In this document: piece by piece, positions 38,387 through 50,678 of the stretch
Numbering within the stretch: position 1 is the first letter of the stretch
How the letters are laid out: the number at the start of each line of letters is the position of its first letter
Assembly (NCBI RefSeq): GCF_001570365.1
Contig: NZ_BBYK01000045.1
Span: 62,001 to 126,000, forward strand
Length of the DNA: 64,000 bases
Source: Microtetraspora fusca
GTDB lineage: Bacteria > Actinomycetota > Actinomycetes > Streptosporangiales > Streptosporangiaceae
Direction of reading: 5' to 3'
Made by a program: the position numbers and the translations under genes
The notes under the pieces: generated by a model
The model's input: only the letters and a program-made list of their open reading frames with translations
Database searches by the model: none
Told to the model about the DNA's origin: nothing

Positions 38387-39478
38387 TCAGGAGGCGAGCC
38401 GGGCCAGCGCTCCGGTGTAGATCTCGACGGCCTCCTCGATGCGCGAGATCACGCAGTACTCGTCGGTGACGTGGGCCTGCTCGGGCTCCCCGGGACCGCA
38501 GATCACGGCCGGCGCCCCGCCACTGGCGGCGACCAGGACGGACGCGTCGGTGAAGTAGCTGGCCGCGGGCCGGTCGCCCGGCGGCGTGGCCCCCGCGGCG
38601 AGCAGCGCCTGGACGAAGTCGTCGTCCGGGTCGGTCCACACGGCGGGCAGGTCGGTCAGCACCTCGAGGGAGGTCTCCTCACCGAGGGCGCGTCCCAGCC
38701 GCTCACGCAACTCGGCGTGGTCCTGGCCGGCGACGGTGCGCATGTCCACGGTCGCCTCGGCCAGGTCGGGGACGGAGTTCACGTTGATCCCGCCGCGTAC
38801 CGTGCCGACGTTGGCGGTCGGGGCGCCCAGCCACGGGTGGGCGGGCACGCCGGGGTCGAACCCCTCCACCGCGCCGATCGCACGGGCCAGCTTGTAGACC
38901 GCGTTGTCCCCCAGATGCGGCATCGAGCCGTGCGCGGTGCGCCCGCGGGCGACCGCCTTGAGCCACAGCGCGCCCTTGTGCCCGAGCAGCGCCCGGTTGG
39001 CGGTCGGCTCGGCGACCAGCATCGCCCGCGCCTCGCCGACCATCCCGGCGGCGATCATGTCGATCGCGCCCTCGCACCCGGTCTCCTCACCGACGGTGAG
39101 GACGACCTCCAGGGCCGCCCGCGGGCCCGAGCCGCGTACGTGCCGTTCGGCGGCGACGACGAGCGCGGCCACCCCGGCCTTCATGTCGCTGGAGCCGCGC
39201 CCGTAGAGGCGGTCGCCGTCCACCTCGGCGGCGTGCGGGTCGTGCGCCCACGCCTGGCCGCCCAGCGGCACGGTGTCCAGGTGCCCGGTCAGGACGACCG
39301 GGACGCCCGAACCCCAGCGGGCCACCAGTCCGGTACGCCCTGGCGCGTACCGATGCTCCCGCACGTCGAAGCCCGCCGCCGACAGCCGCCGGGCGAGCGG
39401 CTCGGCGACCGCCGCCTCGCCGCCGCCGACCGAGTCGATCCTGATCAGGTCGCGGGCCAGCTCCACCGCCTCGCTCAC
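38387..39478 (-). CDS. M20-family metallohydrolase (ArgE/DapE-like)
   Basis: A 363-residue di-zinc hydrolase. The metal motifs are LTGHLDTVPLGG (His, Asp), YGRGSSDMKAGVAAL (bridging Asp) and TVGEETGCEGA (catalytic Glu followed by a ligand Glu); the lid domain contains GRTAHGSMPHLGDNA. It cleaves N-acyl or amide bonds of small molecules. The GTG at 39478 overlaps the lacI stop (GTGA) and has ggaagggg upstream, so it is cotranscribed with lacI. In this LacI module it may process an N-acylated substrate or product. Confidence 0.83.
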   Translation of the reverse strand: MSEAVELARDLIRIDSVGGGEAAVAEPLARRLSAAGFDVREHRYAPGRTGLVARWGSGVPVVLTGHLDTVPLGGQAWAHDPHAAEVDGDRLYGRGSSDMKAGVAALVVAAERHVRGSGPRAALEVVLTVGEETGCEGAIDMIAAGMVGEARAMLVAEPTANRALLGHKGALWLKAVARGRTAHGSMPHLGDNAVYKLARAIGAVEGFDPGVPAHPWLGAPTANVGTVRGGINVNSVPDLAEATVDMRTVAGQDHAELRERLGRALGEETSLEVLTDLPAVWTDPDDDFVQALLAAGATPPGDRPAASYFTDASVLVAASGGAPAVICGPGEPEQAHVTDEYCVISRIEEAVEIYTGALARLAS

Positions 39479-40518
39479 GCGGTTCCCCTTCCCTTTCCCA
39501 TTCCGTTCGCGCCGCCGGCGGCCACCGGTCGGCTGGTCTCCCGTACGACGAGCCGGGGGGCGATCGCGACGCGCTGGGCGGGCCTCGGGTCGCTCACCCG
39601 GACCTGCCCCAGCAGGCGCACCGCCTCGGCCGCCATCTCCTCGACCGGCTGCCGGACGGTGGTGAGCGGCGGGTCGCACATCGCGGCGTGGCCGACGTCG
39701 TCGAAGCCGACGACCGACACGTCGTCGGGCACCCGGACGCCGCCCGTCCGCAGCGCCCGCACCAGCCCCACGGCGATCTCATCGTTGCCGCACACCACGG
39801 CGTCGGGCATGGTGTCGCCGTCCAGCAGCAGGCGGCCCGCCTCGATGCCCCATTCGAGGGTGAACTCGCCGAGCAGCGGTGCCGTGGCGTTCACCCCGGC
39901 CCGGGCGGCGGCCCGCTCGAAGCCGGACAGGCGGGATCTGGCCGAGGAGTTCATCAGGCGGCTGCCCACGAACGTGACCACTCGCGCGCCGCCGGCGGCC
40001 ACGTGCTCGACCGCCTGGGCCAGGGCGGAGTCGTCGTCCACGCCCACCCAGTCGGCTCCGCCGCCCTCGATGTACCGGTCGACCTGGACCAGCGGGACAC
40101 GTCGCGCGGCGTTCAGCACCGCGGGCACGCTGGCCTCGATGTCGCACGGGCTGATGATCAGGCCGTCCACCCGCCGGGCGAGCAGCGTCTCGAGCCGCCT
40201 GGCCTCGACGTCCGGCCGGTACTGCGACGCGCACAGGAGCAGGTCGCGCCCGGTCTCCTGGAGCTGGTGCTCGACCGCCTCGACGATCGTGGTGAAGAAC
40301 GGGTTGCCGATGCCGGGGACGATCATGCCGATCGTGCCCGTGGTCCGGTCGCGCAGCGCCTTGGCGACCGCGTTCGGCTGGTACCCGAGCTCGGCGGCGG
40401 CGCGGGACACCCGCTCGGCGATCTCGGGGGTGACCTTGCGCCGCCCCGAGAGGGCGCGGGAGGCCGAGGCCACGGATACGCCGGCCGCCCTGGCCACGTC
40501 ATGGATTGTCACGCCCAT
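39475..40518 (-). CDS. LacI-family repressor of the uptake/catabolic module
   Basis: A 347-residue LacI protein. The helix-turn-helix is VTIHDVARAAGVSVASASRALSG (about 3-25) with a hinge helix up to LGYQPNAVAKALR; the rest is a periplasmic-binding-protein-like sensor domain (VGVDDDSALAQAVEHVAAGG, CGNDEIAVGLVRAL). It diverges from the ABC importer. A perfect 16-bp palindrome at 40681-40696 is its likely main operator and a degenerate copy at 40531-40546 sits just before its own start, suggesting autoregulation. The inducer is probably the imported sugar or nucleoside. Confidence 0.86.
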   Translation of the reverse strand: MGVTIHDVARAAGVSVASASRALSGRRKVTPEIAERVSRAAAELGYQPNAVAKALRDRTTGTIGMIVPGIGNPFFTTIVEAVEHQLQETGRDLLLCASQYRPDVEARRLETLLARRVDGLIISPCDIEASVPAVLNAARRVPLVQVDRYIEGGGADWVGVDDDSALAQAVEHVAAGGARVVTFVGSRLMNSSARSRLSGFERAAARAGVNATAPLLGEFTLEWGIEAGRLLLDGDTMPDAVVCGNDEIAVGLVRALRTGGVRVPDDVSVVGFDDVGHAAMCDPPLTTVRQPVEEMAAEAVRLLGQVRVSDPRPAQRVAIAPRLVVRETSRPVAAGGANGMGKGRGTA

Positions 40519-40530
40519 GGTGTCATCATC

Positions 40531-40546
40531 GTGTAATCGATTTCCC
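40531..40546. promoter_or_regulatory. Degenerate LacI operator at the lacI start
   Basis: gtgtaatcgatttccc keeps the core TAATCGATT of the main operator at 40681-40696 but loses the symmetric ends. It lies 13 bp upstream of the lacI ATG (minus strand), where no Shine-Dalgarno is visible. Confidence 0.6.
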
Positions 40547-40641
40547 TGTCCTGTCGGGGCTGGAGCGCTCGTTGCCGATCTGTGAGCTTCCTCACTGAAG
40601 AGTTCAGGAGAACGATAGATCGTTCTGGGGGTTACGTCACC

Positions 40642-40696
40642 TTGACGCCCGTTTGTGCTGCTCGCTAGCATCCCAGAAATTGGTAATCGATTACCA
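40642..40696 (+). promoter_or_regulatory. Promoter and LacI operator of the ABC operon
   Basis: -35 TTGACG (40642-40647), 18-bp spacer, -10 TAGCAT (40666-40671). The perfect palindrome TGGTAATCGATTACCA (40681-40696) follows, covering the expected transcription start and early leader, the classic place for a LacI-type roadblock. Confidence 0.82.
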
Positions 40697-40752
40697 CACT
40701 CCCCACACTTTTACCTGCGGCTCCACTGGAGCGGCCCCCGAAAGGCTGTCCG

Positions 40753-41733
40753 ATGGCACGATCCATTCGACTCACCCGCATCACCACGGCGACCGCACTC
40801 CTCGCGACCGGCCTGCTGGCCGCCGCGTGCGGTGGCACGGACGACTCCGGCTCCGCGGCCTCGGGCGGCGCTGACAAGCCGAAGATCGGCCTCGTCCAGA
40901 TCAACCAGCAGGCGATCTTCTTCAACGAGATGAACGCCGGTGCCCAGCAGGCGGCGAAGGAGGCGGGCGTCGAGCTGACGGTCTTCAACGCCAACGACGA
41001 CCCCGCCAAGCAGAACGAGGCGATCGACAACTTCGTCCAGCAGCAATTCGACGCCGTCGTCGTGGTGGCCATCGACGTCGAGGGCATCAAGCCCGCCGTC
41101 AAGATCGCCAAGGACGCCGGGCTGAAGGTCGTCGCGGTGGACGCCATCGTGGACTCCCCGTCCGTCGACACCCAGGTCGGCGTTGACAACGCCGCCGCCG
41201 CCCAGCAGGCCGGCGCGTTCGTGAACGACTGGGCCAAGGCGCAGAACGTCTCCGCACCCAAGATCGGCGTCGTCGGCGCGCTCAATTCGTTCATCCAGAA
41301 CATCCGCAAGGACGACTTCGTCAAGACGGTCGAGGGCGCGGGCGCGAAGATCGTGCAGACGGTGGACGGCCAGAACAAGCAGGAGGCCGCCATGACGGCC
41401 GCCGAGAACCTGCTCACGTCCCGTTCCGACATGAACGTCGTCTACGCCACCGGCGAGCCGGCCCTCCTCGGCACCGTGGCCGCGGTGAAGTCGCAGAACG
41501 CGGCCGACCGGGTCAAGGTCTTCGGCTGGGACCTCACCAAGGAGGCGATCAGCGGCATCGACGCCGGGTTCGTCGCCGGCGTCGTCCAGCAGGACCCGAA
41601 GACCGAGGGCTACGAGGCGGTCAAGGAGGCCAAGGCCCTCGTCGGCGGCGCCCAGCCCAAGAAGAAGATCGACGTGCCGGTGACGATCGTGACCAAGGAC
41701 AACGTCGACCAGTACCGGGCCACCTTCAAGTGA
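40753..41733 (+). CDS. Sugar-type ABC substrate-binding lipoprotein
   Basis: A 326-residue binding protein of the RbsB/periplasmic-binding-protein-4 family. The signal ends in a lipobox LLAAAC (Cys26) followed by a Ser/Gly-rich linker, so it is a membrane-anchored lipoprotein. The body has IGLVQINQQAIFFNEMNAGA and the hinge sequences typical of pentose or nucleoside binders (FNANDDPAKQNEAIDNFVQQ, VYATGEPALLGTVAAV). First gene of the LacI-controlled operon; substrate unproved, but the downstream nucleoside hydrolase suggests a ribosyl compound. Confidence 0.88.
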   Translation: MARSIRLTRITTATALLATGLLAAACGGTDDSGSAASGGADKPKIGLVQINQQAIFFNEMNAGAQQAAKEAGVELTVFNANDDPAKQNEAIDNFVQQQFDAVVVVAIDVEGIKPAVKIAKDAGLKVVAVDAIVDSPSVDTQVGVDNAAAAQQAGAFVNDWAKAQNVSAPKIGVVGALNSFIQNIRKDDFVKTVEGAGAKIVQTVDGQNKQEAAMTAAENLLTSRSDMNVVYATGEPALLGTVAAVKSQNAADRVKVFGWDLTKEAISGIDAGFVAGVVQQDPKTEGYEAVKEAKALVGGAQPKKKIDVPVTIVTKDNVDQYRATFK

Positions 41734-41777
41734 GCGACGAGACGGCAACCGAACGGAAACCTGAGGAGGTGAATCCC

Positions 41778-42617
41778 GTGGCCCCAGCGGAGAGCGCCGC
41801 CGAGCGCACCGTCGACCGCGTGGTCATGCGCGACATCCGCAAGCGCTACGGAATGGTCGACGCGCTGCGCGGCGTGACGCTGCGCGTCGGCCCGGGTGAG
41901 GTGATCGGGCTCGTCGGCGACAACGCCGCCGGCAAGTCCACCCTGATGAAGGTGCTCGCGGGCGCGGTCGTGCCGGACTCCGGCGAGATCGTCTTCGACG
42001 GGCAGACGGTCTCGTTCGCCACGCCGCGCGACGCGCGCGAGCTGGGCATCGAGATGGTGTACCAGGACCTCGCCCTGTGCGACGACATCGACGTGGCCGG
42101 CAACCTGTTCCTCGGCCGCGAGCCCCGCAAGGCCGGCGGCCTGCTGCTCGACGTCGCGCGGATGCACAGGGACGCCCGCCGGCACCTGGACGCGCTGAAC
42201 ATCCGGATCCCGCTCACCGACATCCCGGTGGGCGGCCTGTCCGGAGGGCAGCGCCAGGCGGTGGCCATCGCCCGCGCGGTGACCTTCGGCCCCAAGCTGC
42301 TCATCCTCGACGAGCCCACGGCGGCGCTGGCCGTCGCCGAGGTCGAGACCGTGCTCGAACTGATCAAGACGGTCTCCGCGCAGGGCGTCTCGGTCATCCT
42401 GATCACGCACCGCCTGCAGGACCTGTTCCGGGTCTGCGACCGGCTCTGCGTGATGTACGAGGGCACCCTGCGGGCCGACCTCGACGCCCGGGCCACCAGC
42501 CTGGAGCGGCTCGTCTCCGAGATCGTCGCCCACGACCAGATCGACTCCGGCAAGAACGACGCCGGAGAGGCCGGCGGGCGGAAGGAGCACGACACGACCG
42601 AGGGAGCGCGACGGTGA
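41778..42617 (+). CDS. Sugar ABC transporter ATPase, single-domain
   Basis: A 279-residue ATPase: Walker A GLVGDNAAGKST, signature LSGGQRQAVAIARA, Walker B LLILDEPTAAL and switch ILITHRL. It has one nucleotide-binding domain, unlike two-domain RbsA. A GTG at 41730 overlaps the previous stop, but the GTG at 41778 is preceded by a near-perfect gaggaggtg (41763-41771, 6-base spacing), so I take it as the start. The last 25 residues are hydrophilic and disordered. Works with the binding protein and the permease. Confidence 0.86.
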   Translation: MAPAESAAERTVDRVVMRDIRKRYGMVDALRGVTLRVGPGEVIGLVGDNAAGKSTLMKVLAGAVVPDSGEIVFDGQTVSFATPRDARELGIEMVYQDLALCDDIDVAGNLFLGREPRKAGGLLLDVARMHRDARRHLDALNIRIPLTDIPVGGLSGGQRQAVAIARAVTFGPKLLILDEPTAALAVAEVETVLELIKTVSAQGVSVILITHRLQDLFRVCDRLCVMYEGTLRADLDARATSLERLVSEIVAHDQIDSGKNDAGEAGGRKEHDTTEGARR

Positions 42618-43666
42618 CCACCAGCGAGCCGACCACCACCGGCGGGCGGGCCGGCGCAGGCAAGCCCCCCGTCGTCAGCGAACGGGTCGTGACCACACGC
42701 TCGGCCCGCGCCAACGCCCACATCGGCAAGCACGCGCAGACGATCGCGATCGGCGTCGTGCTGGTCCTCCTGCTGATCTTCTTCGCGTTCTCGGCGGACC
42801 GGTTCGCGACGACCGGCAACCTGCTCAACCTGCTGCGGCAGATCTCGCCGACGCTGATCGTCGCCATCGCGATGACGTTCGTGATCAGCACGTCCGGCAT
42901 CGACCTGTCGGTCGGATCCACTGTCGCGCTGTCGGGATCGCTGCTGGCGATCGTTCTGCAGCACGGCTGGGACCCGACGCTGGCGCTCGTCGCCATCCTC
43001 GCGCTCGGCGCGCTGATCGGGTTCGTGAACGGCTGGTTCTCGTCGTACCAGAACATCCCGCCGTTCATCGTCACTCTGGCCATGCTGTCGATCATGCGCG
43101 GCACCGCGCTGCGCGCCACCGAGGGGTACTCCACCCCGATCGACGGCGATCTGTGGATCGTCCAGCTCGGGCAGGGGCGCGTCGCCGGGATCCCGGTGCC
43201 GGTCATCCTCGCCGTCGTGATCGCGGCGGTCGGCTGGATCACCCTGACCCGCACGCCGTTCGGACGGTACGTGATCGGCCTGGGCTCCAACGGCGAGTCG
43301 CTGCGCCGTACCGGCGTGAACACCCGCAAGGTCGGACTGGCCGTCTACGTGCTGACCGGCCTCGCCGCGGCCCTGGCCGGCGTGCTGATCGCCACCCGGC
43401 TCAGCTCCGGCTCCTCGAACGCGGGGACCGGCTTCGAGCTCGAAGTGATCACGGCCGTGGTGCTCGGCGGCACCAGCCTCTTCGGCGGCCGGGGCAGCAT
43501 GCTCGGCACCATCCTGGGCGCGCTCACCCTCGGCGTCATCGCCAACGGCCTCGTGCTGCTGCACGTCTCGCCGTTCTACGTCCAGATCGTGCAGGGCGCG
43601 ATCCTGCTGCTGGCCATCTTCGCCAACAGCAAGGTCTGGGCCAGGTTCGGCGCGGTGCGTAAATGA
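42614..43666 (+). CDS. Sugar ABC transporter permease
   Basis: A 350-residue RbsC/XylH-type permease with about ten helices starting at residue 47. Conserved loops include TFVISTSGIDLSVGS and AVVLGGTSLFGGRGSMLGT (near 275-293). A 45-residue Thr/Gly/Arg-rich cytoplasmic N-terminus precedes the first helix. The GTG at 42614 overlaps the ATPase stop by 4 bp. With a single permease and a single-domain ATPase, the transporter is probably a homodimer of each. Confidence 0.87.
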   Translation: MTTSEPTTTGGRAGAGKPPVVSERVVTTRSARANAHIGKHAQTIAIGVVLVLLLIFFAFSADRFATTGNLLNLLRQISPTLIVAIAMTFVISTSGIDLSVGSTVALSGSLLAIVLQHGWDPTLALVAILALGALIGFVNGWFSSYQNIPPFIVTLAMLSIMRGTALRATEGYSTPIDGDLWIVQLGQGRVAGIPVPVILAVVIAAVGWITLTRTPFGRYVIGLGSNGESLRRTGVNTRKVGLAVYVLTGLAAALAGVLIATRLSSGSSNAGTGFELEVITAVVLGGTSLFGGRGSMLGTILGALTLGVIANGLVLLHVSPFYVQIVQGAILLLAIFANSKVWARFGAVRK

Positions 43667-44760
43667 CCGTGGAGACGGGAGGCACCGGGGTCACCGTGAC
43701 CACGGTGCTCGGCCCGGTGCCCGTCGAGGAACTGGGCGTCACGCTCTGCCACGAGCACCTGCGCAACGACGGCGCCCTCGCCTGGCACCCGGCGCCCGAG
43801 GGCGACACCGAGGGCGAACTGATCGCCGGCTCGCCGGTGCGGATGGAGTTCCTCGGCCGGCTGCGCAACGACCCGTACCTCTCGCGCGACAACGTCTCCC
43901 TGGACGACACCGGCGTGGCGATCGAGGAGGTGGCCCGGTTCGCCGCGCGCGGCGGGCGCAGCGTCCTCGAGGTCACCCCGGACGGCCTCGGCCGCGCCCC
44001 GGCCGAGCTGGCCGCGATCGCCCGCGCCACCGGTCTCAACATCGTGATGGGCTGCGGCTTCTACCTGGAGCGCACCCACCCGGAGCGGGTCCGCGGCATG
44101 AGCGTCGCGGACGTCGCCACCGAGATCGAGCGCGACCTCACCGAGGGCGTGGACGGGGTGCGCGCGGGCGTCATCGGCGAGATCGGCGTCTCCCCGGACT
44201 TCACCGCCGAGGAGGAGAAGGTCCTGCGCGCCGCCGCGCGGGCGCAGGCCCGCACGCGGGTGCCGCTGTCCGTGCACCTCCCCGGGTGGGTACGGCACGG
44301 CCACCGCGTGCTCGACGTCATCGCCGAGGAGGGCGGCCTGATCGAGGCCACCGTCCTGTCACACCTCAACCCCAGCGGGCGGGACCGCGACTACCAGGTC
44401 GCGCTCGCCACCCGCGGCGCCTACCTCGGGTACGACATGTGCGGCATGGACTACCTCTACCCCGGCGAGGGCCAGTCCCCGTGCGACGAGGACAACGCCG
44501 CCGCGGTCGCGTGGCTGCACCGCGCCGGGCTGGGCCACCGGGTGCTGCTGTCCCAGGACGTGTTCCTCAAGACCATGCTGGTCCGCTACGGCGGCACCGG
44601 TTACGCGCACATCCTGACCCACTTCGTGCCGCGGCTGCACCGGCACGGGCTGACCCCCGCGGACACCACGCGGCTGCTCGTGGACAACCCCCGCGACCTT
44701 TTCCTGGCCTTCGCGGCATCAGGGAACCGACACACTTCCCACACCAACGACACCCTCTAA
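43663..44760 (+). CDS. Phosphotriesterase-family hydrolase
   Basis: A 365-residue amidohydrolase-superfamily protein. Metal ligands are visible: LCHEHLRNDG (HxH), VIGEIGVSPD (Glu at the place of the bridging carbamylated Lys, as in E. coli PhP), LSVHLPGW, TVLSHLNPSG and the Asp of VLLSQDVF. Members include lactonases and phosphatases for sugar derivatives. The start overlaps the permease stop (ATGA). In this operon it probably acts on the imported compound or its first product, for example opening a lactone. Confidence 0.83.
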   Translation: MTVETGGTGVTVTTVLGPVPVEELGVTLCHEHLRNDGALAWHPAPEGDTEGELIAGSPVRMEFLGRLRNDPYLSRDNVSLDDTGVAIEEVARFAARGGRSVLEVTPDGLGRAPAELAAIARATGLNIVMGCGFYLERTHPERVRGMSVADVATEIERDLTEGVDGVRAGVIGEIGVSPDFTAEEEKVLRAAARAQARTRVPLSVHLPGWVRHGHRVLDVIAEEGGLIEATVLSHLNPSGRDRDYQVALATRGAYLGYDMCGMDYLYPGEGQSPCDEDNAAAVAWLHRAGLGHRVLLSQDVFLKTMLVRYGGTGYAHILTHFVPRLHRHGLTPADTTRLLVDNPRDLFLAFAASGNRHTSHTNDTL

Positions 44761-44772
44761 GGAGACATCCTC

Positions 44773-45522
44773 ATGACCCGCGTGCTTGTCGCCGGCGAAT
44801 CGTGGGTGAGCGTTTCGACCCATTACAAGGGCTTCGACGCGTTCACCACGACCACCTACCACACCGGTTTCGAGCCGCTGCGGGACGTCCTGGTCGCCGA
44901 CGGCGTGGAGGTCGACCACCTCCCGGCGCACGACGTGCCCAAGCTGTTCCCCGGAACGCTCGACGCCCTGTCCGCGTACGACGTCGTCGTGCTCTCCGAC
45001 ATCGGCGCCAACAGCATCCTGCTGCACCCCGACACCTGGCTGTCCAGCGGCAAGACCGCCAACCGCATCGAGCTGCTGGCCGACTGGGTGGAGCAGGGCG
45101 GCGGCCTCGCGATGGCGGGCGGCTACCTGAGCTTCCAGGGCTTCGAGGCCAAGGCCGCCTACAGCGGTACCGCCGTCGAGCGGGTACTGCCCGCCCGCAT
45201 CTCCCGCTTCGACGACCGGGTGGAGACGCCGCAGGGCGTGCCCGGCGCCCTCGTCGACGGCTCGCACCCGATCACCGCCGGCCTTCCCGCGGGATGGCCC
45301 GAGCTGCTCGGGTACAACCGGTTCGAGGTGCCGGAGGACGCGACCCTCCTCGCCACGGTCGGCGGCGACCCGCTGCTCGCCGTACGCGAGGCGGGGGCCG
45401 GCCGTACGCTCGCCTGGGCGTCGGACATCGCGCCGCACTGGTGCCCCGACGAGTTCGTGGCGTGGGACGGGTACGCCAAGCTGTTCACCCGCGCCGTGCG
45501 CTGGCTGGCCAAGGAGATCTGA
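44773..45522 (+). CDS. Glutamine-amidotransferase-like protein (COG5426 type)
   Basis: A 249-residue protein with the class I amidotransferase-like fold: VLVAGESWVSVSTHYKGFDAF, then VVVLSDIGANSILLHP and GGGLAMAGGYLSFQGF, where the nucleophile elbow carries Gly-Gly-Tyr in place of a Cys. Hence it is not an active amidotransferase of the usual type. Related proteins occur next to sugar and polyol genes with unknown function. The ATG at 44773 has aaggag upstream. Its place between a PTE-like enzyme and a nucleoside hydrolase suggests a real pathway step. Confidence 0.78.
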   Translation: MTRVLVAGESWVSVSTHYKGFDAFTTTTYHTGFEPLRDVLVADGVEVDHLPAHDVPKLFPGTLDALSAYDVVVLSDIGANSILLHPDTWLSSGKTANRIELLADWVEQGGGLAMAGGYLSFQGFEAKAAYSGTAVERVLPARISRFDDRVETPQGVPGALVDGSHPITAGLPAGWPELLGYNRFEVPEDATLLATVGGDPLLAVREAGAGRTLAWASDIAPHWCPDEFVAWDGYAKLFTRAVRWLAKEI

Positions 45523-45523
45523 C

Positions 45524-46465
45524 GTGCCCATCCCGGTGATCCTGGACTGCGACCCCGGCCATGACGACGCCATGGCCATCCTGCTCGCGGTGGCGAATCC
45601 GGCGATCGACCTGCGCGCGGTGTCCACCGTCGCGGGCAACCAGACCGTCGAGAAGACGGCGCTCAACGCCCGGCGGATGCTCAGCCTGGCGGGGGTCACC
45701 GGGGTGCCCGTCGCGGCCGGCTGCGACCGGCCGCTGACCGGGACCCTGGAGGTCGGCGACTACGTGCACGGGGAGAGCGGGCTGGACGGCCCGGCGTTCG
45801 GCGAGCCGGACGTGCCCCTCGACCCGCGGCACGGTGTCGAGCTCATCCACGACACGCTCGCGGCGGCGGACGAGCCCGTCACGATCGTGGCGATCGGGCC
45901 GCTGACCAACATCGCGACCCTGCTGCGGCGCCACCCCGAGGACCGGGAGCGGATCCGCGAGATCGTGATCATGGGTGGCTCGACCGAGCGGGGCAACCAC
46001 ACCCCCTACGCCGAGTTCAACATCGTCACCGACCCGGAGGCCGCCGCCGAGGTCCTCGACAGCGGTGTCCCGACGACGTGGGTGGGGCTCAACGTCAGCC
46101 ACCAGGCGCTGGTCACCCCCGACGTGCTCGACCGCATCTCCGCGCTCGGCACCCCGCTGGCTCGCGTCTGCGTGGAGCTGCTCACCTTCTTCGGGTCGAG
46201 CTACCACCAGGCGTGGGGCTTCGAGGCGCCGCCGCTGCACGACCCGATCACCATCGCGTACCTGATCGACCCGCAGGTCATGACGTACGCGCGGGTGGGG
46301 CTGCGGATCGAGGTCGAGGGCAGGTACACCCGGGGCGCCACGGTCGCCGACCTCCACAGCCGGATGGACTGGGAGCCCAACGCGAACGTGGGCCTGATCC
46401 TCGACCGGGACCGCTTCTGGGACCTCATGATCGGCGCGATCGAGCGGCTCGGAGCGCCAAAATAG
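45524..46465 (+). CDS. Inosine-uridine-preferring nucleoside hydrolase family
   Basis: A 313-residue nucleoside hydrolase. The calcium/ribose motif is ILDCDPGHDDAMAILLA (DxDPGxDD type, residues 6-22), with IGPLTNIATLLRRHP, IVIMGGST and NIVTDPEAA as further family marks; the last acidic ligand is probably in the LHDPITIAYLI segment. It splits N-ribosides into base and sugar. The GTG at 45524 follows aaggag and lies 1 bp after the previous stop. It is the last gene of the LacI operon and the best hint to the substrate. Confidence 0.88.
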   Translation: MPIPVILDCDPGHDDAMAILLAVANPAIDLRAVSTVAGNQTVEKTALNARRMLSLAGVTGVPVAAGCDRPLTGTLEVGDYVHGESGLDGPAFGEPDVPLDPRHGVELIHDTLAAADEPVTIVAIGPLTNIATLLRRHPEDRERIREIVIMGGSTERGNHTPYAEFNIVTDPEAAAEVLDSGVPTTWVGLNVSHQALVTPDVLDRISALGTPLARVCVELLTFFGSSYHQAWGFEAPPLHDPITIAYLIDPQVMTYARVGLRIEVEGRYTRGATVADLHSRMDWEPNANVGLILDRDRFWDLMIGAIERLGAPK

Positions 46466-46554
46466 CTTCTGAGCTGCAGAGACGTCGGGAATCCTTCGGG
46501 AAACTCCAGGACACTCCACGTTCCGCCAAGATCATGACGCACGATCATGAAAAG

Positions 46555-46583
46555 CGCCCCGCCGCCATTCAGGCGGCGGGGCG
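46555..46583. terminator. Hairpin after the nucleoside hydrolase operon
   Basis: A perfect 12-bp stem cgccccgccgcc / ggcggcggggcg with loop attca. The T-tract is on the minus-strand side (gaaaag before the stem), but in actinomycetes the stem alone probably stops the plus-strand operon. Confidence 0.75.
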
Positions 46584-46735
46584 TACGTGCGCACAGGCTT
46601 AACACTCGGCCGGCAGCGCTCCGGCTGAAGAGAACGGCAGGGGCGGCAATCCCAGAAGGATGTTCGGTCGTCTCATATTCGAGCCGCTCCGCGCCGAGAC
46701 GTTCACACCAGGGAAATGGCCCGGCCGAGCAGACC

Positions 46736-47218
46736 CTCGGTCCCCTCCGGCAGGGCCTGCATCGGTTCGAGACCGAGACCGAGGCCGTACGCGCCATGCT
46801 CCGCGCGCTGCACGCCGAGGCGCCGAAGCGTACGAGCCAGCTGGCCGAACGTGGCTACCAGAAGTGGGTGGCCGGGTGCGGCCTCACCTACTGGATCATC
46901 TGGCTGGAGGAGTTCCCGAAGATCTTCGACGCGCTCCCGGACAAGGAACAGGAGATGTTTCTGGAGCTGGTCAAGGAGCTGCGCAGCGCGGGCGGCACGA
47001 TCGTCATGTCCTTGCAGCGCAGCGACTACACGCAGATGCCCACGCTGGCCCGCGGGCAGCTCGCGAAGTGGTGCTTCGGCCTGGAGTACGCCGGCGACGC
47101 GAAGTTCGGCCTGTTGAACGTGCTCGCCGAGGACGGGGTGATCGGGCGGGACGATGAGCGCCGCTGCTACCGGATCATCCGCGCGGACGTGCTCGCGCCG
47201 GAGCCTGCCGGCGTGTGA
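46736..47218 (+). pseudogene. Truncated FtsK/Tra-type DNA translocase
   Basis: About 160 codons encode the C-terminal half of an FtsK/SpoIIIE-like motor as found in actinomycete conjugative elements: LTYWIIWLEEFPKIF carries Walker B, and RSAGGTIVMSLQRSDYTQMP is the following signature; the domain continues to the stop at 47218. The Walker A half is absent and the sequence left of about 46736 does not look coding. I read it as the remnant of an integrative conjugative element's transfer gene, marking the left part of the accessory region. Confidence 0.7.
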
Positions 47219-47471
47219 CACCCCCGTGACATCCCGATCAAGATCAAAAAGGGTGGTGGGCGCGCATCCCACGCGCAGCCGTACGCGCGAGCCATTGCAG
47301 CAGCTCTGTACGGAATTTCGCGCCTATCTCTTCCTTCGACCACAGGCGGTCGTAGATCCGTAAGCTCCTTCGCCTTGGCGGCGGCGAGGCCTCCGCGGTG
47401 CTCGTGGCTAATGGTTGCTCACCTGCGCAACTTTTTAACCTTTGTTGGGCTACACGGTAGCTTTGGCGCTC

Positions 47472-48080
47472 GTGGACGGAATCTTGGGCACTGTGGCGGC
47501 GGCAGTGGGCATGTTCGCCGGTACGAATGTCGACGACATCGTTGTGCTGACGGTGTTGGCCTTGTCGATGCGGGCCAGCGGCCTGCCCAAGCGCTGGCAG
47601 ATCTGGGCCGGCCAGTATCTGGGCATCGGCGTGCTGGTGCTGGTCTCGGTGGTGGCCGCGCTCGGCCTGACCATCGTGTCAGACGACTACGTCGGCCTGC
47701 TGGGCCTCGTGCCCTTCGCGCTCGGCGTCTGGGGCCTGATCAAGGCGATTCGGGCTCACGCCAACGGAGAGGACGACCCCTCCACGGCGGTGGCCTCGGG
47801 ACTGGTGTCCGTGGTGGGGGTGACGATCGCCAACGGCGCCGACAATATCTCCGTCTACACGCCCGTCTTCCGCACGATCGGTATGGGGCCGACGATGGTG
47901 ACCATCGCCGTATTCGCAGTCGGGGTCGCCGTGTGGTGCCTGGCCGGTTCCTGGCTGGGCTCGTATCAGAAGGTCGTCACCGTCATTGAGCGCTACGGCC
48001 ACTGGATCGTCCCGGTGGTGTTCATCCTCATCGGGTCGCTCATCGTGATCAAGTCCGGCGTGCTGGGCAAGATCTTTTGA
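47472..48080 (+). CDS. CadD-like cadmium-resistance transporter
   Basis: A 202-residue membrane protein of the CadD family (LysE superfamily), with VGMFAGTNVDDIVVLTVLAL near the N-terminus and the mirrored GVTIANGADNISVYTPVF near residue 120; both carry the conserved N-x-D motif. About six helices. The start is uncertain: GTG 47472, TTG 47484 or TTG 47442 are in frame and none has a good ribosome-binding site. CadD proteins give cadmium or quaternary-compound resistance. It follows the translocase remnant and may be cargo of the old mobile element. Confidence 0.78.
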   Translation: MDGILGTVAAAVGMFAGTNVDDIVVLTVLALSMRASGLPKRWQIWAGQYLGIGVLVLVSVVAALGLTIVSDDYVGLLGLVPFALGVWGLIKAIRAHANGEDDPSTAVASGLVSVVGVTIANGADNISVYTPVFRTIGMGPTMVTIAVFAVGVAVWCLAGSWLGSYQKVVTVIERYGHWIVPVVFILIGSLIVIKSGVLGKIF

Positions 48081-48194
48081 TCCCTGGTCGCGCTCGTGGC
48101 CCTGCTTTGCATGTTCTTCCCGTCCCCACCGACGCACCTCGAGTTCCCGAGTGCAGAAGGATTACAGGGGCTGATCATCGGTGAAGGGCCACCA

Positions 48195-48480
48195 CTGCCC
48201 CGGACACGGAGAAGCAAGAGGAGCAAAGGTGGCCGTTGTAGTACAGACGTTGTAGGACGGCTACTGGTTGACGCACGCCCATTACGAGCTGTGCCGATTG
48301 TCCGGCTTGCCGCGCCATGACGAAACGCCCCCTCCCTCAGGAGGGGGCGTCGTGCTGTACAGCTTGCGCTCGGCTATCGCTGGCCGGACTCGCCCGCTCG
48401 TGCGCAGCCAGCCCGGCAGAATCGCCTGGACGCCAGGTGGCGCCATCACCCGCGCGAGGCCGCAGCCGTCGCCAGTCCCG
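48195..48480. repeat. Diverged repeat unit, left copy (decayed)
   Basis: This stretch resembles 54120-54480: shared pieces are tggccgttgta-tac, gaagcaagag-agcaa, a hairpin, gtcgtgctgtac, ctcggcta-cgctggccgg, ggcagaatcgc and gccatcacccgcgcgag. It contains a perfect hairpin at 48325-48350 (acgccccctcc / ggagggggcgt). On the minus strand it would encode LARVMAPPGVQAILP, as in the intact small gene of the right copy, but a 2-base deletion spoils the end. Confidence 0.6.
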
Positions 48481-48695
48481 CCGCGAGCGCACGGCAGTGT
48501 CCTCGGGATGCCCGCCGCATGGACCACCGGGAGCCATAAGGGCGGGACGGTCCGTCAGCAGGCAGTCTGGCCTGCCTCGTTCCAAGTTGACTCCAAGCCG
48601 ATCACTAAAGCGCGCTGCGACGCTGCGGTGTCGATAACGAGGAGGTGGCCGGGGCGGCGTCCCCTTCCCCCTCCGTCACGATCTCAAGGAGGACC

Positions 48696-48878
48696 ATGTT
48701 GAGACATTCGTTCCGCGCCCTCAGCGGCGTCGGGCTGGCTGCCGCTCTCCTGGTGGCCGGGTTCGGTATTGTCCGTGCGGCCAACCACGCCAATGGCCAG
48801 TCCGATGTCGGCGTCTCTGCCTACTACTACCCCGCGAACCACTACGACACGTGCGAAAAAAGGTGTAGTGAGTTGTGA
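48696..48878 (+). CDS. Small secreted protein, 60 residues
   Basis: A short protein with a clear signal peptide (MLRHSFRALSGVGLAAALLV... ending GIVRA-AN) and a mature tail of about 30 residues with two cysteines (YDTCEKRCSEL) and three consecutive tyrosines. aaggagg lies 3 bases before the ATG and 6 before an in-frame TTG at 48699, which may be the real start. A run of six A near the end could cause slippage. Not a family I know; the peptide could be a small disulfide-bonded secreted factor. Confidence 0.55.
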   Translation: MLRHSFRALSGVGLAAALLVAGFGIVRAANHANGQSDVGVSAYYYPANHYDTCEKRCSEL

Positions 48879-48970
48879 TTGCCCCGTTACACCGTCACCT
48901 CAGCAACGCGAATTGCTTGTGATTCGGGGTAGTACCGCGACAGGGTCCTAGTGGATGGATGGCCACCGCT

Positions 48971-49757
48971 AGAGCGTGTCCGACAAATGATCACGCTGGG
49001 TGCGGTTAGATGATCCTCCGTGGTGAGACGTGGTGAACTGACCGATAAGGCCTGGCAGCGGATCGAGCCGTTACTGCCCGCCACGGACGGCAAAGGCCGT
49101 CCGTGGCGGGATCACCGCCAGGTCATCGACGGCATCCTGTGGCGGCTGCGGACCGGCGCACCCTGGCGCGAGATTCCCGAACGCTACGGCCCCTGGCAGA
49201 CCTGTTACGAGCGGTTCAAGCGCTGGGACGAGGACGGCACCTGGGCGCGTCTGCTGGAGGAGATGCAGGTCAAGGACGACTCCATCGGCCGGGTGGAGTG
49301 GACCTTCAGCATCGACTCGACCATCGCTCGCGCTCACCAGCATGCGGCCGGAGCGAGAAAAGGGGGGACGACGGCGGGACGATCGATACGAAGCAGTCGC
49401 AAAGACGGCAGGCGCTTGGCCGCTCCCGGGGAGGGCTCACCACCAAGCTCCACCTGATCACCGAGGCCCGCGGCCTACCCATGGCCCTGCACCTGACCGC
49501 AGGGAACGTGGTCGACTGCACCGCCTTCGAGGCGGCCATGGCCACGCTACGGGTCCCACGCCGCGGGCCGGGACGACCGCGCACCCGCCCCGACCGGCTC
49601 ATTGGCGACAAGGGCTACTTCTCCAAGCAGATCCGCGTCTACCTGCGCCGGCGCGGTATCAAGGCCGTCATCCCCGAGCGTAGGGATCAGATCGCCAACC
49701 GCAAACGCAAGGGCAGTCGGGGAGGTCGTCCTCCCGCGTTTGACGCTGAGGTCTACA
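48971..49757 (+). mobile_element. IS5-family insertion sequence, 3' end missing
   Basis: The left end is probably agagcgtgtccgacaaatga at 48971, resembling IS427-group terminal repeats. It is followed by a two-frame transposase. The element breaks off after about 49757, where transposase similarity stops and unrelated sequence begins; I find no right inverted repeat before the MBL gene. Confidence 0.75.
49020..49757 (+). pseudogene. IS5-family transposase, frameshift type and truncated
   Basis: Frame 1 (from GTG 49020) has LTDKAWQRIEPLLP, the typical IS5/IS427 N-terminus, through GILWRLRTGAPWREIPERYG and FSIDSTIARAHQHAAGA (first Asp of the DDE triad). At 49358-49367 the slippery run AAAAGGGGGG lets ribosomes shift into frame 2, which continues SRGGLTTKLHLITEARGLP, then LIGDKGYFSKQIRVYLRRRGIKAVIPER (second Asp). 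The third acidic residue, in the ERxFNRLKQWR-like part, is missing because of the 3' truncation after FDAEVY. The enzyme should be inactive. Confidence 0.8.
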
Positions 49758-49859
49758 ACGGCGGCAAGGTGCGCGAGGTTCGTGGGCGACCAGCCGGGCC
49801 AGACGAGCTTGCCCTTCTTGGCCGCCATCGCGAGCGCGGCCCGGAGCCGACAGGCTCGA

Positions 49860-50678
49860 TCAGCCGATCGGTGGTGCGAGGTACTCCAGCGCGTAACCGT
49901 CGCCGGAGGCGGTTACGCGGGCGATGCCGGGTGAGTCGAGGTGGGCGCCGGCTACGAAGTGGTGTGGTTGGGTCAGTTGTTCGAGGAGCGCCGCTCGCGC
50001 GGCGCGGGCCTGGGACTGGTTGCCGTCGAGCTCCCAGGACACGTTTGGCTGATCGAATTGGAGCGTGGGAACGTGAACGGTGTCGCCCCAGGCGAGAAGG
50101 TGGCCGGTGCCGCTCCTGACCTCGTAGACGGTGTGACCGGGTGTGTGGCCCGGTGTCGGGATCGCGGTGGTCCAGTCGTTGATCGCGACCTTCTCCGACA
50201 CGGGTACGACCCGGTCGCGGATCGGCTCGAGCCGCCCGGTGAACACCGAGGTGTCGCCCGCGCCGATCCACACGCGCTCGAGTTTGGTGAACGCCTCTGA
50301 ACCGTCCGGCGCGATCAGGCCGCTCACGTGGTCTTCGTGCTTGTGGGTGATGGCCACATCGGTGACCTGCGCGCGGTCGATTCCCGCTTCGTCGAGCGCG
50401 TCGTAGATCAATCCCATGGTGGGGTCGTGCCAGGCGTTGGACGCGCCGGTGTCGATGAGAACCGACCGCGTGCCGTCGGTGACGAAGAAGGCGTTGACGG
50501 ACAGCCGCAAGTTGTCGCCGGCCAGCGGCACGGCGGCTGGCAGCTCATCGAGCGTGCGCCCATCCTCGTCGCGGAGCCGTGTCGGCGGCATGTCGATGTA
50601 CCCGTCTCGCAACGAGATCACCTGCAGATCGCCGAATTCGAACGTGGCATGGTGCCGGCCACTCGAGATCAAACGCAT
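49860..50678 (-). CDS. MBL-fold metallohydrolase
   Basis: A 272-residue metallo-beta-lactamase-fold protein. The main motif is VAITHKHEDHVSGL (HxHxDH), with ligands again in TPGHTPGHTVYEV, GDTVHVPTLQF and the terminal GAHLDSPG. It lacks a signal peptide in the chosen frame; the ATG at 50678 follows ggagg. Such enzymes include lactonases and glyoxalase-like hydrolases. It is divergent from the XRE-cupin regulator with overlapping palindromes in between, so it is probably that regulator's target. Confidence 0.83.
   Translation of the reverse strand: MRLISSGRHHATFEFGDLQVISLRDGYIDMPPTRLRDEDGRTLDELPAAVPLAGDNLRLSVNAFFVTDGTRSVLIDTGASNAWHDPTMGLIYDALDEAGIDRAQVTDVAITHKHEDHVSGLIAPDGSEAFTKLERVWIGAGDTSVFTGRLEPIRDRVVPVSEKVAINDWTTAIPTPGHTPGHTVYEVRSGTGHLLAWGDTVHVPTLQFDQPNVSWELDGNQSQARAARAALLEQLTQPHHFVAGAHLDSPGIARVTASGDGYALEYLAPPIG

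Follow-up and report, generated by a model that had tools for sequence, protein, structure and literature searches.

A conserved LacI-type operon of Microtetraspora fusca with a predicted role in the uptake and breakdown of a base-modified riboside

The 64,000-nucleotide stretch of Microtetraspora fusca DNA analysed here (the window; host genome 9.0 Mb, Streptosporangiaceae) carries at 38387-46465 a packed unit of eight genes, which encode a LacI-family repressor, an M20 metallohydrolase, the solute-binding protein (SBP), ATPase and permease of a ribose-type ABC importer, a phosphotriesterase-like enzyme (PTE), a GATase1_like protein (GAT) and a nucleoside hydrolase (NH). We propose, with a probability of about 0.6, that this unit is a LacI-repressed operon that takes up and degrades a base-modified ribonucleoside or some other β-N-riboside, of which we infer the substrate class, the reaction types and the step order. 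An earlier reading of the sequence alone (the original prediction) had named these genes and placed them under one LacI protein; the Pfam matches place all of them in the named families (M20, LacI, ribose-type importer, PTE, GATase1_like and IU_nuc_hydro) at the following coordinates.

38387-39478, minus strand: M20 (DapE/ArgE-like) metallohydrolase, about 363 amino acids; Pfam PF01546 and PF07687, TIGR01910 at 202.8 bits (cut-off 217.6)
39475-40518, minus strand: LacI-family repressor, divergent from the importer operon; PF00356 and PF13377, RbsR models below cut-off
40753-41733, plus strand: CUT2/ribose-type solute-binding lipoprotein (SBP) with a non-ribose pocket; PF13407 (Peripla_BP_4), nearest in the PDB 5hsg (278 bits)
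41730-42617, plus strand: single-domain ABC ATPase of the importer; PF00005 (ABC_tran), one stretch
42614-43666, plus strand: ABC permease; PF02653 (BPD_transp_2)
43663-44760, plus strand: PTE-family metal hydrolase with a Glu bridging ligand (E173); PF02126 at 212 bits, 3k2g at 357 bits, metal ligands invariant
44773-45522, plus strand: GATase1_like protein (GAT) with Tyr118 instead of the nucleophile Cys; PF07090 at 306 bits, fold matches 2gk3 and 1t0b
45524-46465, plus strand: nucleoside hydrolase (NH) of the RihA/UriH group; PF01156 (IU_nuc_hydro) at 338 bits, catalytic and ribose-site residues invariant

Results

The gene set recurs as a unit

With the PTE as query, the complete set of eight genes turns up, order unchanged, in Microtetraspora, Microbispora, Nonomuraea, Streptosporangium, Sphaerisporangium and Sphaerimonospora (identity about 77-97%). 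At about 41-76% identity it is also present in one metagenome-assembled genome (MAG) of Coriobacteriia and one of Aeromicrobium, in two MAGs of other Actinomycetes and in a pair of small genomes from another family. The conserved order, together with the operator 5' of the importer, extends down to about 60% protein identity. A second, short Coriobacteriia contig holds the part from the permease to the NH. The distribution is patchy yet widespread: matches to this PTE at E ≤ 1e-60 occur in 50 of the 343 family genomes, in 11 of 395 at class level and in 5 of 396 at phylum level. Because both the set and its order recur in dozens of genomes, and the operator described below recurs in the same place, the gene set is real and conserved and no chance assembly. 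A lack of joint conservation in other genomes, which would have refuted the original prediction, is thereby excluded. The unusual composition pointed out in that prediction is thus genuine, and it is not special to the window genome; as described below, it comes with two sugar-cleaving solutions and an exchangeable M20 role.

The nucleoside hydrolase keeps its catalytic and ribose-binding residues

The NH matches the IU_nuc_hydro model over its full length (338.1 bits, gathering score 34.2, span 5-300) and belongs to that family. Ten residues are invariant in 23 cluster sequences (D8, D10, D14, D15, N39, H82, E164, N166, H239 and D240), and these correspond to the catalytic and ribose-binding motifs of the family. 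Specifically, the DxDxGxDD motif is present as DCDPGHDD, the C-terminal catalytic His/Asp pair is H239 and D240, and the ribose site comprises N39, E164 and N166. Nucleoside hydrolases are generally regarded as strict for ribose. The scores lie below both equivalog cut-offs (UriH 341 versus 450 bits; RihA 339 versus 433 bits), so the NH is neither a UriH nor a RihA equivalog.

In many clusters of this type a ribokinase directly follows the NH (in L038 it scores 297.6 bits against a cut-off of 299.65), and in the window genome a ribokinase is encoded elsewhere than in the cluster. The position of RbsK Glu143, which we take to be a ribose contact, is Glu in all 21 NH-type kinases and in none of the 34 kinases of the sister form described next (Asn in 15, Tyr in 19), counts that are not phylogenetically independent.

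A sister form replaces the nucleoside hydrolase with a kinase and BtpA

Relatives in Rhizobium, Paracoccus, Pannonibacter, Shinella, Aureimonas, Phyllobacterium, Ponticoccus and Pantoea share the core of importer, PTE and GAT. After this core or near it come a PfkB kinase and a BtpA/SgcQ protein, and a nucleoside hydrolase is absent. This form also includes a protein of the TenA family or an M20 of either the hydantoinase/carbamoylase or the DapE type, and a second BtpA form occurs within the family of the window genome itself (L082-L084, L095-L108). The full-locus counts of NH, BtpA and both are 21, 19 and 0 in a first set and 16, 16 and 0 in a second. After removal of four apparent repeats from the second set, about 71 distinct loci remain, 33 with NH, 35 with BtpA, none with both and 3 with neither; these counts rest on score thresholds within stretches of up to 20 kb and would miss an NH or BtpA encoded elsewhere in the genome. 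NH and BtpA (with PfkB) are therefore two mutually exclusive, alternative fillers of one role, whereas the importer and the core enzymes stay constant. Mapped onto the PTE tree, the BtpA label must have changed at least four times along supported branches, so the exchange was not one ancient event.

BtpA carries a C-terminal GSG...GVIVAS..LK motif, and the motif region weakly resembles triose-phosphate isomerase and the tryptophan synthase alpha subunit, on the basis of which we read it as a putative phosphate-binding site. Open frames in L082-L084 had raised a BtpA-PfkB fusion; BtpA lies in another frame there and the two genes are merely adjacent. Two further loci (L051, L094) contain the importer, the PTE and the GAT with neither NH nor BtpA nearby, and their nucleosidase may be encoded elsewhere. 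A paper on pea-rhizosphere mutants reports no competitiveness defect for the permease pRL90234, whose identity with the rhizobial cluster could not be established.

Both forms share an importer pocket that departs from that of RbsB

The cluster SBPs were aligned to Escherichia coli RbsB, for which we take N13, F15, F16, D89, R90, R141, F164, N190, F214, D215 and Q235 as the ribose contacts. Six of these eleven (F15, F16, D89, R141, D215 and Q235) are kept in all 42 SBPs, whereas N13A, F164N, N190G and F214W are found in 42 of 42 and R90 is lost throughout (Ala in 39). These residues set the SBP apart from RbsB, and ordinary ribose uptake was rejected on them. The nearest solved structure, that of the Klebsiella protein 5hsg, has the same sequence motifs. 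Since the same altered pocket occurs in the NH and the BtpA forms, the two probably share one ligand, which would bear a sugar and differ from free ribose.

The PTE and the GAT occur with nucleoside and ribose genes under other importers

One contig (genome G940, contig C2; L114/L128) encodes a LacI protein and an importer made up of a Bmp/PnrA-type SBP, a double-domain ATPase and two permeases; several NHs, an SDR and an MFS protein come next, followed by PTE, NH, GAT and NH. Its first NH passes the UriH cut-off (451.4 versus 450 bits). This locus is an independent association of the PTE and the GAT with nucleoside uptake and cleavage. About seven NH genes lie behind the Bmp-type importer, two of them interleaved with the PTE and the GAT, an unusual number for one operon.

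Additionally, PTE, NH, GAT and ribokinase share a locus with a luciferase-like monooxygenase (LLM), a flavin reductase and an ammonium transporter (L115, genome G769), and on Rhodococcus and Arthrobacter plasmids the GAT stands without the PTE beside LacI and a ribokinase-type kinase, also with phosphoribosyl pyrophosphate (PRPP) synthetase and nicotinate phosphoribosyltransferase, and in Arthrobacter with an NH. Taken together, these loci indicate that the GAT travels with ribose chemistry even under differing importers. L087 on pLDW-10 of Arthrobacter crystallopoietes and L091 on pNit of Rhodococcus rhodochrous are catabolic loci, possibly for pyridines, that combine an LLM monooxygenase, nicotinate phosphoribosyltransferase, PRPP synthetase, ribokinase, a HAD phosphatase and GATase1_like, with the NH in L087; they look like degradation via an N-ribosylated intermediate.

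The PTE, GAT and M20 proteins and the nature of the substrate

The PTE has the two-metal site and the bridging acid ligand of the phosphotriesterase family. All 44 cluster PTEs share H30, H32, E173, H205, H234 and D299, and E173 lies within an IGEIG motif, which bears out the original prediction of Glu as the bridging ligand. The same holds for the predicted loss of the nucleophilic Cys in the amidotransferase-like protein: the GAT elbow reads GGYLSF with an invariant Tyr118, and the GAT thus lacks the nucleophile of a glutaminase-active class I amidotransferase. Its predicted structure (predicted local distance difference test score, pLDDT, 77.8) matches 2gk3 (Z 25.8, root-mean-square deviation 3.6 over 235) and the ThuA-like 1t0b (Z 17.7, root-mean-square deviation 3.1 over 204), so that the modelled fold is class-I amidotransferase/ThuA-like. 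With this fold and many invariant polar residues, the GAT is probably an enzyme.

The window genome has two further PTE-family genes, in tandem and from another branch, with about 35-43% identity (G000:C77:39322-41429; L002, L003). A truncated piece with permease, PTE, GAT and M20 lies beside IS26 on the conjugative IncL/M plasmid pEBSI041-2 of Klebsiella pneumoniae (L062).

In some relatives, the M20 role is filled instead by a hydantoinase/carbamoylase-type M20 (M20C; 405 bits, cut-off 204), or a TenA-family protein stands alongside or in its place. The cluster TenA scores 44.2 bits against the 130 bits required for thiaminase II and is no canonical member of that group; it carries Glu137 at the aligned position that we take to be the catalytic Cys site of thiaminase II. 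TenA_E handles N-formyl-aminomethylpyrimidine (FAMP), and YlmB turns FAMP into the amine (PMC10470507). By analogy, the fillers of this third role suggest that an amide, formamide, ureido or aminopyrimidine group is hydrolysed. Thiamin-pyrimidine salvage as such was rejected, as TenA is not part of the window cluster and falls far below the cut-off, and we retain it as a chemical analogy only.

A specific version of the riboside reading would have a ring-opened or formyl- or ureido-bearing nucleoside as substrate, for example from 7-methylguanosine, oxidised guanosine or a t6A-like carbamoyl nucleoside. The PTE would open or trim the ring; removal of an acyl or amino group would fall to the M20, a hydantoinase-type M20 or TenA, and that of the ribose to NH or to a kinase plus BtpA. 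M20A, M20C and TenA, which share amide or aminopyrimidine chemistry, fit this scheme, as do the TenA_E and YlmB reactions on FAMP and the Glu137 of the cluster TenA. We nevertheless consider so specific an assignment unlikely, given the low TenA score (44 versus 130 bits), profile models of which none singles out the window M20 as YlmB-like, and a base on which there is no direct constraint.

An equally unlikely alternative is a sugar-like compound other than a nucleoside, such as a sugar acid, a lactone or an opine-like molecule, with the PTE-like enzyme as a lactonase and NH or BtpA acting on another bond. CUT2 importers normally carry sugars, the relatives of the PTE include sugar-phosphate lactonases (NF045706, a weak match), and the rhizobial distribution would suit such a substrate; yet the cluster has no dehydrogenase, aldolase or isomerase, the ribonucleoside site of the NH is intact, and the PTE and the GAT occur in a Bmp-type operon with many NHs (L114/L128).

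Deacylation of an N-acyl amino acid (taurine or beta-alanine) by a PTER-like enzyme, with the NH as a passenger, is far less probable still. In its favour, the PTE shares a family with PTER (9efa, 183 bits), and deacylation is the chemistry of M20 members. Against it, the cluster PTE has G208, P237 and F301 (the last two invariant in 44 sequences) where PTER has its substrate residues R204, R233 and H300 (PMC11374699, PMC13311154), and about 68 of the 71 loci carry NH or BtpA. The alignment was made to 9efa, taken as PTER on its name and the matching spacing of the three residues. PTER-type N-acetyltaurine hydrolysis was rejected on these replacements, which make N-acetyltaurine or N-acetyl-beta-alanine an unlikely substrate.

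Regulatory sites and borders of the operon

The unit is read in two directions from one intergenic region: the minus strand encodes LacI and M20, and the six genes from SBP to NH follow one another on the plus strand. Four-base overlaps join LacI/M20, SBP/ATPase, ATPase/permease and permease/PTE, which makes this one packed unit; 12 bases separate PTE from GAT, and 1 base the GAT stop from the NH start. The M20 start, deduced from the sequence and its relatives, is a GTG at 39478, where a GTGA overlap with the LacI stop points to translational coupling. The intergenic region holds three sites.

40532-40545, no strand: second LacI-type operator TGTAATCGATTTCC, directly before the LacI start; 2 mismatches, kept in Streptosporangiaceae loci
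40642-40671, plus strand: weak sigma-70-like promoter TTGACG-18-TAGCAT, 5' of the importer; agrees with the consensus at 9 of 12 positions, where shuffled sequence would give 0.4 such hits
40682-40695, no strand: palindromic LacI-type operator GGTAATCGATTACC, a perfect palindrome; exact match, exact in most NH-type loci

The operator GGTAATCGATTACC recurs, exactly or with few changes, in the same place across the loci of NH-type relatives, where shuffling would give 0.04-0.13 per locus, and the view of the locus as one LacI regulon is supported.

Downstream of the NH, at 46547-50119, inspection by eye finds a frame like an FtsK/Tra-type ATPase fragment, a CadD-like membrane protein and an IS5-like transposase. 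Because of these frames, mobile-element remnants possibly form the border of the operon. A strong GC hairpin of 12 pairs (46555-46583), about 90 bases 3' of the NH, scores as a minus-strand terminator.

Discussion

The NH residues, the Glu143 pattern in the kinases and the putative phosphate-site motif of BtpA suggest a scheme for each form of the proposed riboside operon. In both, the importer would take in the intact riboside. In the NH form, the NH would release ribose, which ribokinase would convert to ribose-5-phosphate; in the BtpA form, PfkB would phosphorylate the riboside first, and BtpA would then cleave it. The PTE-like, M20 and GATase1-like proteins would act on the modified base, before or after removal of the sugar, most likely by hydrolysis of amide-, formamide-, ureido- or ring C-N bonds. 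The nucleoside or N-riboside class put forward in the original prediction accords with the NH residues, the adjoining ribokinase, the non-ribose SBP pocket and the Bmp-type operon, whereas its acylated or lactone-bearing substrate, its deacylation by the M20 and its order of steps stay hypothetical.

Several observations weigh against a riboside. None of the sources searched reports a ligand or an activity within this group of PTEs, SBPs and GATs; PTE, GAT and M20 are also found with neither NH nor BtpA nearby (L061, L051, L094, L062); and in the BtpA-type relatives, which have no NH, it is the shared SBP pocket that carries the riboside assignment. The RbsB contacts that are kept could fit another sugar-like ligand, and the cluster NH could act on a non-nucleoside.

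A bolder proposal, which we put forward tentatively and against the odds, is that the operon represents an undescribed, widespread pathway for a base-modified ribonucleoside, in which the PTE-like and GATase1-like proteins would be new nucleobase-breakdown enzymes and BtpA/SgcQ a new class of N-glycosidase, alternative to NH, cleaving the 5'-phosphorylated riboside from the adjacent PfkB. If so, testable functions would follow for three groups without a known role, namely the branch of PTEs with the solved structures 3k2g and 3rhg, the GATase1_like family PF07090 (2gk3/3soz) and BtpA/SgcQ, and a modified nucleoside would be a nutrient of soil and root-associated bacteria. The exchange of NH and BtpA, two unrelated proteins in one role with an unchanged importer and core enzymes, offers a clean genetic handle.

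The system is best filed as a variant of nucleoside catabolic operons, one undescribed in the literature searched: the open-access papers covered, outside which most subscription papers lie, held no pathway description for the gene set, BtpA/SgcQ, PF07090, the rhizobial locus or pyridine degradation. Closest are the uridine/pyrimidine operons (UriR/UriH, RihA), with which it shares a LacI-type regulator (UriR model, 196 bits), a RihA/UriH-like NH and, in many relatives, a ribokinase; unlike them, it has a CUT2 ribose-type importer with an altered pocket, all of its scores fall below the equivalog cut-offs, and it includes PTE-like, GATase1-like and M20 proteins, which those operons do not need. 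The Bmp/PnrA-type uptake operon (L114/L128) likewise combines PTE, GAT and NHs with an ABC importer, yet the transporter is of another family, the NH is present in several copies and no M20 was found in the stretch. The PTER/RPR branch (3k2g, 3rhg, 9efa) has the same HxH-Glu-H-H-D metal site, and 3k2g the LPGW.R, NPS and DVF.K motifs too, whereas PTER differs from the window PTE in its three substrate residues. Thiamin-pyrimidine salvage (ABC importer, YlmB M20 and TenA) resembles part of the relatives in its importer, M20 and TenA-family protein, and differs from the present system, in which NH or PfkB plus BtpA, PTE and GAT occur. Finally, pseudouridine catabolism (PsuK and PsuG) also pairs a PfkB kinase with subsequent cleavage of the phosphorylated nucleoside, as proposed here for the BtpA-type relatives, and BtpA is, to our knowledge, unrelated to PsuG.

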